NCBI GenBank assembly: GCA_029238515.1 | Contig: JAQWFW010000013.1 | Coordinates: 1-64,000 of the forward strand | Length of the DNA stretch: 64,000 nt | DNA from: Flavobacteriaceae bacterium | GTDB lineage: Bacteria; Bacteroidota; Bacteroidia; Flavobacteriales; Flavobacteriaceae | Direction: 5' to 3' | In this document: positions 44,677-52,207 of the stretch, in pieces | How the letters are laid out: each line of letters starts with the position of its first letter | Position numbering within the stretch: the stretch's first letter is position 1 | Position numbers and translations under genes: made by a program | Notes under the pieces: generated by a model | The model's database searches: none | Told to the model about the DNA's origin: nothing | The model's input: the letters and a program-made list of their open reading frames with translations, nothing else

Positions 44677-45933
44677 TTAAAGACCAAAAGCAGTTTTAAT
44701 GGCTGCTACGTAATCCAGTTTTTCCCAAGTGAAAAGTTCTACATCCAACACCCGTTTTTTACCATTGGGCAGGTAAAATACTTTTTCTACAGTTTCGTTT
44801 GTACGTCCCATATGGCCATAGGCCGCAGTTTCGCTGTACATTGGTGTACGAAGTTTTAGCCGCTGTTCTATTGCCGCTGGGCGCAGGTCAAAGAGTTCCA
44901 TAATTTTTTGTGCAACAGCACCATCGTTGAGGTTCACATTGGCCGTACCATAAGTATCCACAAAAACACCCATAGGTTCTGCTACACCAATCGCATAACT
45001 CACTTGTACCAAAATCTCAGAACACACGCCAGCAGCTACCATATTTTTGGCAATATGCCGCATGGCATAAGCCGCAGAGCGGTCTACTTTACTTGGATCT
45101 TTACCCGAAAATGCACCTCCACCATGAGCGCCTTTTCCACCGTAAGTATCTACAATAATCTTACGTCCTGTGAGACCTGTATCCCCATGAGGACCACCAA
45201 TTACAAACTTCCCTGTAGGATTGATGTGATAGGTAATGTCATCATTAAAAAGGGCTTGAGTTGCTTTTGGTAATTTGGCAATTACTCGAGTAATTAAAAT
45301 CGTTTTGATGTCTTTTTCAATGGTATGGAGCATTTCTTTTTCGTCATTAGAAAACTCATCATGTTGTGTTGAAATTACAATAGAGTCAATACGTAATGGA
45401 ACATTATCGTCGCTGTATTCGATAGTCACCTGGCTTTTCGAATCAGGTCGGAGGTAAGTGATGTCTTTGTGTTCATGACGTAGCGCAGCAAGTTCTTTCA
45501 GAATACGATGTGAAAGGTCTAATGCCAGAGGCATAAAGTTTTCGGTTTCATTAGTAGCATAGCCAAACATCATACCTTGGTCGCCAGCGCCTTGGGCTTC
45601 AGGGGTCTCTTTGTCTACCCCTCTATTTATATCGTCCGATTGCTCATGAATGGCAGAAAGTACGCCACACGAATTGCCATCAAACATATACTCGCCTTTA
45701 GTATAGCCAATTTTGTTGATGGTATCTCGGGCAATTTTCTGTACATCCAAATATGTTCTGGATTTGACTTCACCAGCCAAAATGACTTGCCCAGTCGTTA
45801 CCAAGGTTTCACAAGCCACTTTGGATTGTGGATCAAAAGCCAAAAAATGATCAATAATTGCATCGCTAATTTGATCAGCAACTTTATCTGGGTGTCCCTC
45901 GGAGACGCTTTCGGATGTAAATAAATAACTCAT
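44677..45933 (-). CDS. metK: S-adenosylmethionine synthase
   Basis: Makes SAM from methionine and ATP; cytoplasmic. It is 418 aa. Motifs: [20 protein letters not shown] (ATP/methionine site near the N-terminus), [33 protein letters not shown], and [11 protein letters not shown]. Start is the ATG at 45933; a TTG two codons earlier is less likely. Its leader carries a SAM-II-like riboswitch (45983-46035) and a complementary downstream element, so expression is probably controlled by its own product. The 3' end faces the receptor-like gene with 12 bases between. Confidence 0.97.
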
Positions 45934-45959
45934 AATCAAATGGTTATGAGGAAAAATAA

Positions 45960-45996
45960 GTGCAACAAGCTAAAGGGATTGGTACTGCTTTAGCTT
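45960..45996 (-). promoter_or_regulatory. Putative expression platform of the metK riboswitch
   Basis: On the minus strand the aptamer's 3' core AAGCTAAAG (45996-45988) is followed, after 12 bases, by its exact complement CTTTAGCTT (45975-45967). The next six bases GTTGCA (45966-45961) are complementary to TGCAAC in the aptamer (46013-46008). Forming this helix would break the ligand pocket, so the two folds are mutually exclusive. A U-rich stretch (45956-45952) follows. Which fold lowers expression cannot be told from sequence alone. Confidence 0.6.
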
Positions 45997-46035
45997 TTTT
46001 TTGTGAGGTTGCAATCAGATCAAATTTATCCTCGT
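45983..46035 (-). ncRNA. SAM-II type riboswitch in the metK leader
   Basis: Minus-strand order: stem GAGG (46033-46030), loop beginning ATAAATTTGATCTG, conserved GATTGCAA, closing stem CCTC, an A-rich link, then GCTAAAGC and CAG. It matches the SAM-II arrangement as I recall it: a P1 stem with a loop ending in ATTGCAA, then a 3' strand GCTAAA that forms a pseudoknot; here CTG in the loop can pair with CAG after GCTAAAG. SAM-II riboswitches are known from alphaproteobacteria and Bacteroidota methionine/SAM genes. A promoter box just upstream and metK just downstream fit. A covariance-model search would settle it. Confidence 0.75.
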
Positions 46036-46047
46036 TATATAATGGGG

Positions 46048-48088: not shown

Positions 48089-48118
48089 TTTGTTTTGATT
48101 AAAAAATATCTACTTTAG
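48089..48118 (+). promoter_or_regulatory. Candidate promoter of the aromatic amino acid operon
   Basis: TTTG at 48089-48092, 18 bases, then TACTTTAG at 48111-48118, which differs from TAnnTTTG at one position. The leader peptide start is 19 bases further on. The same TACTTTAG box with a TTTG 19 bases upstream precedes the MazG-like gene. Confidence 0.5.
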
Positions 48119-48137
48119 CGCAGTAATAAAAATAACA

Positions 48138-48215
48138 ATGAAAAATTTAGGTTACACATTTTATAGCTGGTATTATTTCTTTTTTAATAAAAGAGTCGAG
48201 GCCTTGTATGTGTAA
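48138..48215 (+). CDS. Aromatic-rich leader peptide of the phenylalanine/tyrosine operon
   Basis: A 25-codon open frame (start 48138, stop TAA at 48213) whose product contains YTFYSWYYFFF at residues 6-16: nine aromatic residues among eleven, covering Tyr, Phe and Trp. Tyr, Phe and chorismate-derived amino acids are exactly what the downstream enzymes make. It is followed by overlapping antiterminator and terminator pairings. It matches the layout of the E. coli pheL leader without sequence similarity. The peptide itself probably has no role; ribosome stalling on its codons would be the sensor. Confidence 0.82.
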   Translation: MKNLGYTFYSWYYFFFNKRVEALYV

Positions 48216-48248
48216 TTTTCAACAATAAATTTCAATTTGAGTCTCGAT
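48195..48248 (+). promoter_or_regulatory. Antiterminator pairing of the aromatic attenuator
   Basis: GTCGAGGC (48195-48202), inside the last codons of the leader peptide, can pair with GTCTCGAT (48241-48248): six Watson-Crick and two G-U pairs in a row. The second segment is also the 5' arm of the terminator. A ribosome stalled on aromatic codons (48153-48185) leaves the first segment free and lets the antiterminator form; a ribosome at the stop codon (48213) covers it. Confidence 0.68.
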
Positions 48249-48270
48249 GTAAACATCGGGATTTTTTTTT
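48242..48270 (+). terminator. Attenuator terminator before pheA
   Basis: Stem TCTCGATG (48242-48249) and CATCGGGA (48254-48261), loop TAAA, followed by nine T (48262-48270) that end exactly at the pheA start codon. One G-U pair; otherwise perfect. It lies inside an operon leader rather than after a gene, which marks it as an attenuator. Confidence 0.85.
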
Positions 48271-49092
48271 ATGATAAAAAAAGTCGCCATACAAGGAATA
48301 AAAGGGTCATTTCATCATTTGGTCACACAAAATTATTTTGCAACTCCAGTAGAAATAGAACCTTTGTTGACATTCAACGAAGTTGTTGCTTGCCTAACCT
48401 CAAATAAGGTTGATGCAGCAGTAATGGCGCTCGAAAACTCTATTGCAGGGTCTATTATTCCAAACTATGCCCTTATTGATGCCAACGACTTGCATATCAC
48501 TGGTGAATACTATTTGGATGTTCAACACCATTTAATGGCACTCTCTGGGCAAGAAATTGCAGACATCAAAGAAGTGTACTCTCATCCTATGGCTTTGTTG
48601 CAGTGTAAGGTCTTTTTTGATCAATACCCACATATCAAATTGGTAGAAGATGCTGATACGGCGGAATCCGCAAAAAGAATCCATGATGAACAACTCAAAG
48701 GGGTTGCAGCAATTGCGAGTTCGTCTGCGGCAGAGATTTACCAATTAAATGTTTTGGCCGAAAGTATACAGACCATCAAACATAATGAAACACGTTTTGT
48801 AACTGTAGAACGCCAGTCAAATACATCTACAAAAATAAATAAGGCCTCTTTAAAATTTTTATTGGATCACAAACGTGGAAGTTTGGCGGCAATGCTCAAT
48901 GTGATGAGTGATTGTAAAATGAATCTAACCAAAATACAATCCTTACCAAAAATTGATACCCCCTGGAAATATGCATTTTTTGTGGATGTTACTTTTGATG
49001 CTTATGAGGATTATGAAAAAGCGACATCAGTTATGAACATCATGGCCGAAGAATTTAAAGTACTTGGTACTTATAAAAATGCAAAACAATGA
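48271..49092 (+). CDS. pheA: Prephenate dehydratase
   Basis: Converts prephenate to phenylpyruvate on the phenylalanine branch. It is 273 aa: a catalytic domain (opening KKVAIQGIKGSFHH; ALENSIAGSI near 54; conserved NETRFVTVER near 171-180, the Thr-Arg-Phe motif) followed by an ACT domain (FLLDHKRGSLAAML to the end) for feedback by phenylalanine. It lacks a chorismate mutase part, which is instead fused to DAHP synthase at the end of this operon. The start codon abuts the attenuator U-run, so no Shine-Dalgarno is possible. It overlaps the aminotransferase by 4 bases. Confidence 0.94.
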   Translation: MIKKVAIQGIKGSFHHLVTQNYFATPVEIEPLLTFNEVVACLTSNKVDAAVMALENSIAGSIIPNYALIDANDLHITGEYYLDVQHHLMALSGQEIADIKEVYSHPMALLQCKVFFDQYPHIKLVEDADTAESAKRIHDEQLKGVAAIASSSAAEIYQLNVLAESIQTIKHNETRFVTVERQSNTSTKINKASLKFLLDHKRGSLAAMLNVMSDCKMNLTKIQSLPKIDTPWKYAFFVDVTFDAYEDYEKATSVMNIMAEEFKVLGTYKNAKQ

Positions 49093-50234
49093 GTAGAGTT
49101 GCACGTCGTTTACATACTGTTGAAGAATACTATTTTTCCAGAAAATTAAAGGAAGTTAGAACCCTTATTTCGGAAGGTGCGGCTGTAATTAATCTAGGGA
49201 TTGGTAGTCCTGATTTGCCCCCAGATCCATCTGTAGTTTCTGCTCTTGAACAGAGTCTTTCAGATCCCAGTGCACACAAGTACCAAAGCTATCAAGGTTT
49301 GCCGGAACTCAGAAAAGCCATTTCTAGTTTTTACAAAAAAAACTACAATGTTTTGCTCGATGCAGAAACTGAAATTCTGCCTCTAATGGGTAGTAAAGAA
49401 GGCATCATGCATATATCTATGGCTTACCTCAATGAAGGAGATGCTGTTTTGATTCCAAATCCTGGATATCCTACCTACAGTTCGGTTACAAAACTAATGG
49501 GGGCAACGCCTATTTTTTATGATTTGAAAGCTGAATCACAGTGGCAACCTAATGTTTCAGTTTTAGAACAACAAGACCTGTCCAAGGTAAAACTCATGTG
49601 GATTAATTATCCGCATATGCCTACAGGCGCACTAGACTCAAAAGATCATTTGAGAGCATTAGTCGAATTTGCAAATAAACATGATATTCTGCTTGTTAAT
49701 GACAATCCGTATAGTTTTATTTTGAATGACAACCCCAAGAGCATTTTTAACATCGAAGGTGCCAAAGATGTGTGTTTGGAGCTAAATTCTTTGAGTAAAA
49801 GTTTCAACATGGCTGGTTGGCGTGTTGGGATGCTTTCTGGGACAGCTCAGCACATTACCAATGTTATCAAAGTGAAAAGCAATATGGATTCAGGAATGTT
49901 TTATGGCATTCAAAAAGGGGCTATTGCAGCATTAAATTCTTCAAAATCGTGGTTTGCCAATTTAAATGCGATTTATACTAAAAGACGTGCTTTGGTATGG
50001 CAATTGGCAGCTCAATTGGGCTGTACTTTTGATCAACATACAGCTGGGATGTTTGTATGGGCTAAGCTACCTGAAGGACTTGATGCAGAACAATTCATTG
50101 ACACCCTTCTAATTGAAAAAAATATTTTTATAGCCCCTGGGACTATTTTTGGATCCAATGGACAGGGCTATGTCCGTTTTTCATTGTGTGCCTCTGAAGA
50201 AGTCATTAACGAAGCTATAAAACGTACAAGATGA
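49089..50234 (+). CDS. Class I/II aminotransferase, probable aromatic/aspartate type
   Basis: A 381-residue PLP enzyme of fold type I. PLP lysine is in LNSLSKSFNMAGWRVGM (about 235-250), with GSPDLPPDPSV near the N-terminus, NPGYPTYSSV, and the C-terminal arginine in VRFSLCASEE. The operon position between prephenate dehydratase and prephenate dehydrogenase points to amination of phenylpyruvate and hydroxyphenylpyruvate. Other amino acids are possible, since family specificity is broad. It overlaps both neighbours by 4 bases, indicating strict co-translation. Confidence 0.9.
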   Translation: MSRVARRLHTVEEYYFSRKLKEVRTLISEGAAVINLGIGSPDLPPDPSVVSALEQSLSDPSAHKYQSYQGLPELRKAISSFYKKNYNVLLDAETEILPLMGSKEGIMHISMAYLNEGDAVLIPNPGYPTYSSVTKLMGATPIFYDLKAESQWQPNVSVLEQQDLSKVKLMWINYPHMPTGALDSKDHLRALVEFANKHDILLVNDNPYSFILNDNPKSIFNIEGAKDVCLELNSLSKSFNMAGWRVGMLSGTAQHITNVIKVKSNMDSGMFYGIQKGAIAALNSSKSWFANLNAIYTKRRALVWQLAAQLGCTFDQHTAGMFVWAKLPEGLDAEQFIDTLLIEKNIFIAPGTIFGSNGQGYVRFSLCASEEVINEAIKRTR

Positions 50235-51082
50235 AGAATGTTTATATCATAGGAACAGGGCTCATTGGAGGTAGTTTTGCGTTGAATTTAAAAGCAATAA
50301 ACCCCGATGTTATCATTCATGGTATAGACAACAACAACGAACATTTGTCTGAAGCTTTGGCATTAGGATTGATAGATCAAAAGGCAACGCTAAAACATAT
50401 TGTAAATGCTGACCTTGTCGTGCTAGCAATCCCTGTAAACGCCACCTTGGAATTACTTCCTGCCGTCTTGGATTTACTACCGTCACAAGGAATTGTTATT
50501 GATATGGGCTCTACTAAAGCAGCCATTTGTCAGGCCGTAGATACTCATCCTAATCGTTCACGGTTTTTGGCAAATCACCCAATAGCGGGAACAGAATTCT
50601 CTGGTCCAAAAGCTGCACATCAAAGTTTATTTTTTAATAAGACCAATATTATTTGTGATCTTGAAAAAACAAATGAGAAAGCAGCAAAAGCAATGATAGA
50701 AGTTTTTGAAGCGATGGGTATGAATATTCGTTACATGGATGCGACGGAGCACGACAAACATATTGCTTATGTTTCCCATCTATCACACATTAGTTCTTTT
50801 ATGCTCGGTAAAACAGTTATTGATAAAGAGAAAAATGAGCGTAATATTTTTGATATGGCAGGCAGTGGATTCGAATCGACCGTACGACTAGCCAAAAGTT
50901 CACCCGAAATGTGGGCGCCTATTTTTGAGCAAAACAAAGCCAATGTAATTGAAACACTCAATGAATATATTCAAAACCTAAATCATTTTAAGACACTGAT
51001 GGAGTCAGACAATTTTGAAGCCATTCGAAACGAAATGAAAAATACAAATCACATAAAAACAATTTTAAAAGGAATTTCTTAA
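50231..51082 (+). CDS. tyrA: Prephenate dehydrogenase
   Basis: NAD(P)-dependent oxidative decarboxylation of prephenate to 4-hydroxyphenylpyruvate on the tyrosine branch. It is 283 aa. Rossmann motif VYIIGTGLIGGSFA at residues 4-17, IDMGSTKAAI near 96-105, the HPIAGTEFSGP substrate loop near 117 and the helix HDKHIAYVSHLSH near 177. No chorismate mutase or ACT domain is fused. It overlaps the aminotransferase by 4 bases and is followed 12 bases later by the DAHP synthase-chorismate mutase gene. Confidence 0.94.
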   Translation: MKNVYIIGTGLIGGSFALNLKAINPDVIIHGIDNNNEHLSEALALGLIDQKATLKHIVNADLVVLAIPVNATLELLPAVLDLLPSQGIVIDMGSTKAAICQAVDTHPNRSRFLANHPIAGTEFSGPKAAHQSLFFNKTNIICDLEKTNEKAAKAMIEVFEAMGMNIRYMDATEHDKHIAYVSHLSHISSFMLGKTVIDKEKNERNIFDMAGSGFESTVRLAKSSPEMWAPIFEQNKANVIETLNEYIQNLNHFKTLMESDNFEAIRNEMKNTNHIKTILKGIS

Positions 51083-51094
51083 AACCAACACACT

Positions 51095-52177
51095 ATGGAA
51101 AATAGTAAACAATTAGGTACATGGTTAGATGATTTACAATTAAATCACCCCCTTGTTATAGCAGGACCATGTAGTGCAGAAACAGAAGAACAAGTGCTAA
51201 AAATCGCACACGAACTTAAAAATTCCGATGTCAGTTATTTTCGCGCTGGTATTTGGAAACCCCGTACTCGTCCAGGGAATTTTGAAGGCGTTGGCGCTTT
51301 GGGGCTCAAGTGGCTTCAGAAAGTAAAAGCCGAAACAGGACTCAAAACAGCTACGGAAGTGGCCAACAGAGCACATGTCGAACTGGCCCTTGAGCACGAC
51401 ATTGATTTGCTCTGGATTGGCGCACGTTCAACAGTAAGCCCGTTTATTGTTCAAGAAATTGCAGATGCTTTAGAGGGTACAGATAAAATCGTGTTGATAA
51501 AAAATCCTGTCAATCCAGATCTTGCACTATGGCTAGGCGCCGTAGAACGATTGGCTTCTGCAAACATCAAAAATTTAGGAGTAATTCATAGAGGGTTTTC
51601 AACCTATGAAAAATCAAAATATAGAAATAATCCAGAATGGCAATTGGCGATTGAGTTACAAACAAGGTTTCCAGATTTACCACTTATCAATGATCCTTCC
51701 CACATTACTGGGAAGCGTGATATGGTCTTCGATGTTTGTCAAACAGCATTGGATTTAAACTTTGATGGATTAATGATTGAAACTCATTTTGATCCAGATA
51801 ATGCATGGAGTGATGCTGCACAACAAATCACACCTGAAACATTGATCCAATACACCAAAGATTTGAAAATTCGTAACGTAAGTACCACAGAAGCAGATTA
51901 CACTACAGAACTTCAAAATCTTCGTGCACAAATTGATGTAGCGGATAATCAACTCTTAGAAACTTTAGGTAAACGAATGAAAGTTGCCGAAGCCATTGGT
52001 GCACTGAAAAAAGAAAAAAATGTAGCCGTACTACAAAGTAAGCGCTGGAACGAAATCTTGGGCAAAATGGTTTTGGAAGGGGAACAACACAACCTCAGTG
52101 AAGAGTTTATTCTTAAACTTTTTAAGGCGATACACCAAGAGTCAATTAATCATCAAAAGCAAATTTTGAAAGGATAA
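51095..52177 (+). CDS. Bifunctional DAHP synthase / chorismate mutase (type II)
   Basis: A fusion of 360 aa. Residues about 1-265 are a DAHP synthase of the KDO8P-synthase-like type (LVIAGPCSAETEEQVLKIA, FRAGIWKPRTRPGNFEGVG, LINDPSHITGKRD). Residues about 270-355 are an AroQ helical chorismate mutase (LRAQIDVADNQLLETLGKRM KVAEAIGALKK). It catalyses the first step of the shikimate pathway and the conversion of chorismate to prephenate, so it supplies the substrate for pheA and tyrA in the same operon. The fused mutase may also sense prephenate for feedback, as reported for related fusions. A terminator follows 3 bases after the stop. Confidence 0.93.
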   Translation: MENSKQLGTWLDDLQLNHPLVIAGPCSAETEEQVLKIAHELKNSDVSYFRAGIWKPRTRPGNFEGVGALGLKWLQKVKAETGLKTATEVANRAHVELALEHDIDLLWIGARSTVSPFIVQEIADALEGTDKIVLIKNPVNPDLALWLGAVERLASANIKNLGVIHRGFSTYEKSKYRNNPEWQLAIELQTRFPDLPLINDPSHITGKRDMVFDVCQTALDLNFDGLMIETHFDPDNAWSDAAQQITPETLIQYTKDLKIRNVSTTEADYTTELQNLRAQIDVADNQLLETLGKRMKVAEAIGALKKEKNVAVLQSKRWNEILGKMVLEGEQHNLSEEFILKLFKAIHQESINHQKQILKG

Positions 52178-52180
52178 AAA

Positions 52181-52207
52181 AAGGGTGCATTTGCACCCTT
52201 CTTTGTT
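52181..52207 (+). terminator. Terminator of the aromatic operon
   Basis: AAGGGTGC (52181-52188), loop ATTT, GCACCCTT (52193-52200), then CTTTGTT. Perfect 8-pair GC-containing stem directly after the DAHP synthase stop codon; the trailing T-run is interrupted. Confidence 0.78.

Follow-up and report, generated by a model that had tools for sequence, protein, structure and literature searches.

Why should a short open reading frame crowded with aromatic codons stand just upstream of the genes for phenylalanine and tyrosine synthesis in a flavobacterium? The locus lies in a stretch of 64,000 nucleotides (contig JAQWFW010000013.1, positions 1 to 64,000, of Flavobacteriaceae assembly GCA_029238515.1), which was analysed at its full length and is called the window here. 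A preliminary description, made from the letters alone, had seen in it a 25-codon frame with YTFYSWYYFFF at residues 6–16, an antiterminator pairing of 48195–48202 with 48241–48248, and a location 5′ of pheA, an aminotransferase gene, tyrA and a DAHP synthase/chorismate mutase gene. All of this holds: the sequence and the ORF listing agree on a frame from the ATG at 48138 to the TAA at 48213–48215, its translation gives the same aromatic run, and the antiterminator strands form 8 bp, including two G–U pairs. The terminator that it had placed at 48242–48261 is also present, with its nine T, but is slightly larger than described, and its 3′ arm extends into the T tract (Table 1). Our reading, which we hold with high confidence, is that the locus is a ribosome-mediated transcription attenuator of a Phe/Tyr operon, set by charged aromatic tRNAs and above all by those for Phe and Tyr. 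It combines the features that define this class of element: an open reading frame with codons for the end products, an intrinsic terminator 5′ of the first gene, a mutually exclusive antiterminator whose strands co-vary, and a geometry in which, by spacing and folding, a ribosome at the control codons frees strand 2 and one at the stop codon covers it.

Table 1. Elements of the leader, the RNA switch and the operon, in window coordinates.
Feature	Position	Strand	Sequence, basis or remark
Promoter-like TTG-N18-TACTTTAG	48090..48118	+	Putative; read from the sequence
Leader peptide ORF	48138..48215	+	25 codons, encodes MKNLGYTFYSWYYFFFNKRVEALYV; from sequence and ORF listing
Strand 1 of 1:2 hairpin (protector or pause)	48152..48159	+	TTACACAT; leader codons 5–8; partner 48208–48215
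Control codons/stall zone (Y T F Y S W Y Y F F F)	48153..48185	+
Strand 2, antiterminator 5′ strand	48195..48202	+	GUCGAGGC
1:2 hairpin 3′ strand	48208..48215	+	ATGTGTAA; holds the stop codon
Intrinsic terminator hairpin, strands 3 and 4	48239..48264	+	11 pairs; folding and motif scan
Strand 3, antiterminator 3′ strand and terminator 5′ arm	48241..48248	+	GUCUCGAU
T tract	48262..48270	+	Nine T, from the sequence; pheA begins at the next base, 48271
pheA, prephenate dehydratase	48271..49092	+	NCBIfam, below curated cut-off
Class I/II aminotransferase	49089..50234	+	Best models LL-diaminopimelate aminotransferase-like, none above cut-off
tyrA, prephenate dehydrogenase	50231..51082	+	NCBIfam; sole operon protein above curated cut-off
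DAHP synthase/chorismate mutase fusion	51095..52177	+	NCBIfam, below curated cut-off
Terminator-like hairpin at operon end	52181..52200	+	Motif scan

A chance frame next to a chance hairpin can be rejected. A frame with nine aromatic residues in 11 arose 5 times in 20,000 simulated 300-nt stretches of the same composition, the terminator has a folding energy of −12.8 kcal/mol (z −4.6 relative to shuffled sequences, 0 of 200 of which are equally stable) and is recovered by a motif scan independently of folding, and terminator and antiterminator lie in register. Among related leaders, 67% of the codon differences within the last eight control positions either leave the residue unchanged or replace one aromatic residue with another, against 21% expected; the split is 37% synonymous and 30% aromatic exchange, with 12% and 9% expected, among close leaders whose pairs are not independent. 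We read this pattern as a coding signal. Phe and Tyr exchange freely, which argues that both are read as one signal.

The codon content points the same way. In a collection of 163 leaders, many of them found with a covariance model and hence biased towards it, ATG is the start codon in 160, Phe codons occur in all 163 and Tyr codons in 162, while Trp codons occur in 100 and in just 5 of the 26 leaders from outside the family Flavobacteriaceae. The Phe and Tyr codons are the conserved part of the leader, and Trp an optional one. Trp has, moreover, its own leader element, before trpE: the one Bacteroid-trp-like RNA of this genome (L218, G000:C18:6186-6293) lies 5′ of trpE, scores 47.5 bits against a cut-off of 49, and has the leader MNNTKQNTWWWTTRFQQS (WWW). 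The earlier suggestion that the whole aromatic pool is sensed therefore calls for refinement: the evidence favours sensing of Phe and Tyr together over sensing of all three amino acids. One could go further and suppose that phenylalanine alone is sensed, as by pheL of Escherichia coli, with the Tyr and Trp codons as passengers; Phe is indeed the commonest control residue, FFF often stands closest to strand 2, and an order-level relative, L177, has leaders without Tyr. We consider this unlikely, however, given that at least two Tyr codons are found in 160 of the 163 leaders, that a Tyr codon falls inside the 12–30 nt stall zone in 161, and that aromatic-for-aromatic swaps are over-represented.

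For the RNA switch, evidence in favour of attenuation comes from the strands themselves. Across the 163 leaders, antiterminator strands pair with their own partners at a mean of −11.7 kcal/mol, compared with −8.6 kcal/mol for swapped partners, and none of 5000 permutations does as well; in a thinned set of 33 dissimilar leaders, 20,000 rounds of partner swapping gave no pairing as good. In the control with a shuffled strand 2, 95% of leaders reach p ≤ 0.05. The coordinated versions of the antiterminator include GAGAC/GTCTC, GGGAC/GTCCC, GAGGC/GCCTC, GCGGGA/TCCCGC and AGGACT/AGTCCT, as well as GCCGGGAC/GTCCCGGC and GAGCGGTC/GACCGCTC, and the terminator arms co-vary likewise; as strand 3 is common to both helices, such coordinated changes are changes of three strands. 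It is the wider set that provides this signal; among the nearest 40 relatives the antiterminator strands hardly vary, and co-variation is uninformative there. A comparison of relatives was one of the checks on which the preliminary description had staked its proposal, and the proposal came through it, with leader and pairing conserved and coordinated changes in both stems.

The 1:2 hairpin, which that description had not mentioned, has 94.7% of its cells paired across the 40 near relatives and two pairs changed on both sides, a weak co-variation in close relatives. Further upstream, the candidate −7 box at 48111–48118, about 20 nt 5′ of the leader start, has one mismatch to the Bacteroidota consensus TAnnTTTG taken from PMC9723704, and TTTACTTTAGC is retained at the equivalent place in close relatives; transcription would be expected to start near 48124.

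Between the last aromatic codon and the point where pairing of strand 2 begins lies a gap with a median of 10 nt (5–95% range 8–12), and of 9 nt in the window; its standard deviation across the thinned set is 2.7 nt, compared with 7.7 nt for shuffled arms. A gap of 8–12 nt is what one expects if a stalled ribosome holds the last aromatic codon in its A site and leaves strand 2 just free. On the output side, the T tract abuts the pheA start codon in the window and in several relatives, as it might if the hairpin masked the pheA initiation region and were opened by the leader ribosome, that is, if control were translational. We regard such masking as very improbable. The distance from terminator to pheA ranges from 0 to over 300 nt and reaches about 500 nt in two repeat-inserted Gelidibacter-like loci with the attenuator intact, which argues for control of transcription rather than for masking of the start; a long T run, needless for a masking hairpin, is moreover retained in nearly all loci.

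Folding calculations suggest how transcription attenuation could operate. When the edge of the ribosome is set at 48192 and the transcript reaches 48258, the ground state is the antiterminator; with the edge at 48228, where a ribosome at the stop codon would place it, the terminator is the sole structure able to form; and with no ribosome, the terminator conformation is preferred by about 10 kcal/mol. Once complete, the terminator outdoes the antiterminator by about 3 kcal/mol even in the presence of a stalled ribosome, and the switch must therefore work kinetically. In the mechanism that we propose, the leader would be translated by a ribosome trailing RNA polymerase, the close coupling of the two in Bacteroidota being an assumption of the model. 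If translation were slow at the aromatic codons, the front edge of the ribosome would halt just short of strand 2, which would be free to pair with strand 3 and delay the terminator until the polymerase had entered pheA. A ribosome reaching the stop codon would instead cover strand 2, letting strands 3 and 4 pair, and transcription would stop at the T tract, just 5′ of the pheA start codon. Without translation, the 1:2 hairpin and the terminator would be preferred, giving a default off state. We infer from these elements that transcription does terminate here, that starvation lifts the block and that Phe and Tyr are the amino acids that count; the ribosome-mediated attenuation put forward earlier is supported by conservation, strand co-variation, ribosome-sized spacing and folding alike.

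Taken by itself, the pairing architecture would be compatible with another sensor, such as a tRNA- or metabolite-binding riboswitch or a T-box, with the open reading frame incidental. This deserves hardly any credence, as no Rfam family matches the locus, there is no space for an aptamer, the frame is conserved together with its aromatic codons, and their spacing from strand 2 is ribosome-sized. Equally implausible is a leader peptide that acts as a small functional protein: its C-terminal KRNETLYV is conserved in the near group, but this conservation is explained by the overlap of the codons concerned with strand 2 and the 1:2 strand, and several relatives stop earlier or encode other residues while retaining the RNA pairing.

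Since the model itself supplied many of the 163 leaders, our claims about frequency rest only on sets of loci picked by PheA similarity alone, ignoring the leader; taxonomic breadth follows the kinship labels attached to the genomes. In these, an aromatic leader followed by a terminator is present at 41 of 44 pheA loci of relatives (29 of 30 in the subset read first), the attenuator being absent at L027, L166 and L176, and at all 80 loci of named Flavobacteriaceae, in one of which, L239, it is sited further upstream. Other families of the same class have it at 8 of 10 pheA loci; in other classes of the phylum, whose PheA is mostly of a divergent type, it is found at only 2 of 19, a group that doubles as a negative control on how the device was detected. 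A covariance model (R1) built from 29 leaders and searched blind to the genes had matches with E ≤ 0.01 in 230 of 249 family genomes, the weakest of them possibly stray terminators, and with E ≤ 1e-6 in about 200. It also matched 21 genomes outside the family, where 19 of the 20 loci read lay directly 5′ of pheA. The genome of the window gives a single strong match (E 1.5e-22; the next 0.0096); its secondary matches were rejected as further attenuators, with E of at least 0.0096, several covering the terminator end only, and none of the stretches fetched around them holding a protein of the Phe/Tyr operon. On the sequences compared, the attenuator looks like an old and widespread regulator, preceding the operon through most of the class sampled.

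Several loci depart from the common arrangement. At L177 (G059:C25:18600-19700, about 20–420), three tandem Phe-rich leaders, MKHITENKAFSFEAFFFNRKTQA, MNNLVSTFRFFGFFFFRKEGAMS and MNQNTQQNFSFFGFFFFKWKSEAVD, each followed by a terminator, precede pheA and may form a series of three attenuators; PheA is matched only in part at this locus, with one internal stop codon. In the Gelidibacter-like L010 (about 990–1470) and L239 (about 815–1195), head-to-tail repeats carrying GAGTTCGAAGAACGAAATAAAAT and a CCCGCC hairpin lie between the attenuator and pheA. L187 (G342), L315 (G293) and L317 (G404) are the sole other-class genomes found with a pheA attenuator; their PheA is of the closer type, with 38–44% identity to that of the class, a hint that operon and attenuator were acquired jointly by horizontal transfer.

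What the attenuator would control is more than the last steps to phenylalanine and tyrosine. The aminotransferase may, from its operon context, have an aromatic role. In six genomes (two of them single-contig, and the window's own genome included), the operon gene is the sole DAHP synthase gene detected: each genome has one other PF00793 match, which in the window's own genome is a KDO8P synthase, and no type II DAHP synthase was found in the same six. All three aromatic amino acids therefore appear to depend on the transcript. We lean, if only slightly, towards a broader interpretation, in which one ancient attenuator, present in the ancestor of most of the class, takes Phe and Tyr for a single signal and, because the sole DAHP synthase is under its control, sets carbon entry into the whole aromatic pathway, and in which the strictly retained 8–12 nt spacing reflects a close coupling of ribosome and polymerase, in the leader at any rate, without Shine-Dalgarno initiation. 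In Bacteroidota, where Shine-Dalgarno-free initiation brings the coupling of transcription and translation into question, the attenuator could provide a direct reporter for it. The element is also a candidate Rfam family, with which hundreds of leader peptides now unlisted would gain an annotation, and a possible control point for engineering aromatic production.

Leader-peptide attenuation is textbook knowledge in Proteobacteria and Actinobacteria and, to our knowledge, has barely been studied in Bacteroidota. The preliminary description likewise knew of little experimental work on such attenuators in this phylum. Transcriptome mapping in Flavobacterium psychrophilum (PMC9723704) reported a structured, transcribed 5′ element that precedes pheA, is conserved among further genera of the family and has no Rfam match; in a separate passage it reported 'strong clues' that leader peptides attenuate amino acid operons. 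The main text of that paper gives no mechanism or leader for pheA specifically. The element belongs to the same gene and family as ours, and the Flavobacterium pheA loci examined here carry the attenuator. The mechanism is thus known, the pheA element has been seen before, and the idea has a precedent in the family. The leader, the anatomy of the switch, the mixed Phe/Tyr run and the class-wide distribution were not found in the literature searched, subscription papers lying outside the search; new here are the evidence at the level of mechanism, the mixed Phe/Tyr control run and the breadth.

In Rfam, the pheA leader has no match at the gathering score, nor at E up to 10, and none of the Phe_leader (RF01859), Bacteroid-trp (RF01692), T-box or riboswitch models matches the pheA locus. 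Elsewhere in the window, a SAM-II riboswitch (RF01726, 60 bits) lies at 45980–46039 on the minus strand, directly 5′ of metK (44677–45939, minus strand). Bacteroid-trp RNA resembles our attenuator as a leader-peptide-like element of Bacteroidota 5′ of an aromatic operon, but it is Trp-specific and sited at trpE. With the E. coli pheL–pheA system, the flavobacterial locus shares a leader of end-product codons and a mutually exclusive antiterminator and terminator, placed 5′ of pheA. The pheL leader has Phe codons only, whereas the flavobacterial one mixes Phe and Tyr, with Trp in some, and the operon behind it adds tyrA, the aminotransferase and the sole DAHP synthase. E. coli has separate, feedback-controlled DAHP synthase isoenzymes; a mixed Phe/Tyr run placed over the sole DAHP synthase would be a regulatory logic unlike theirs.
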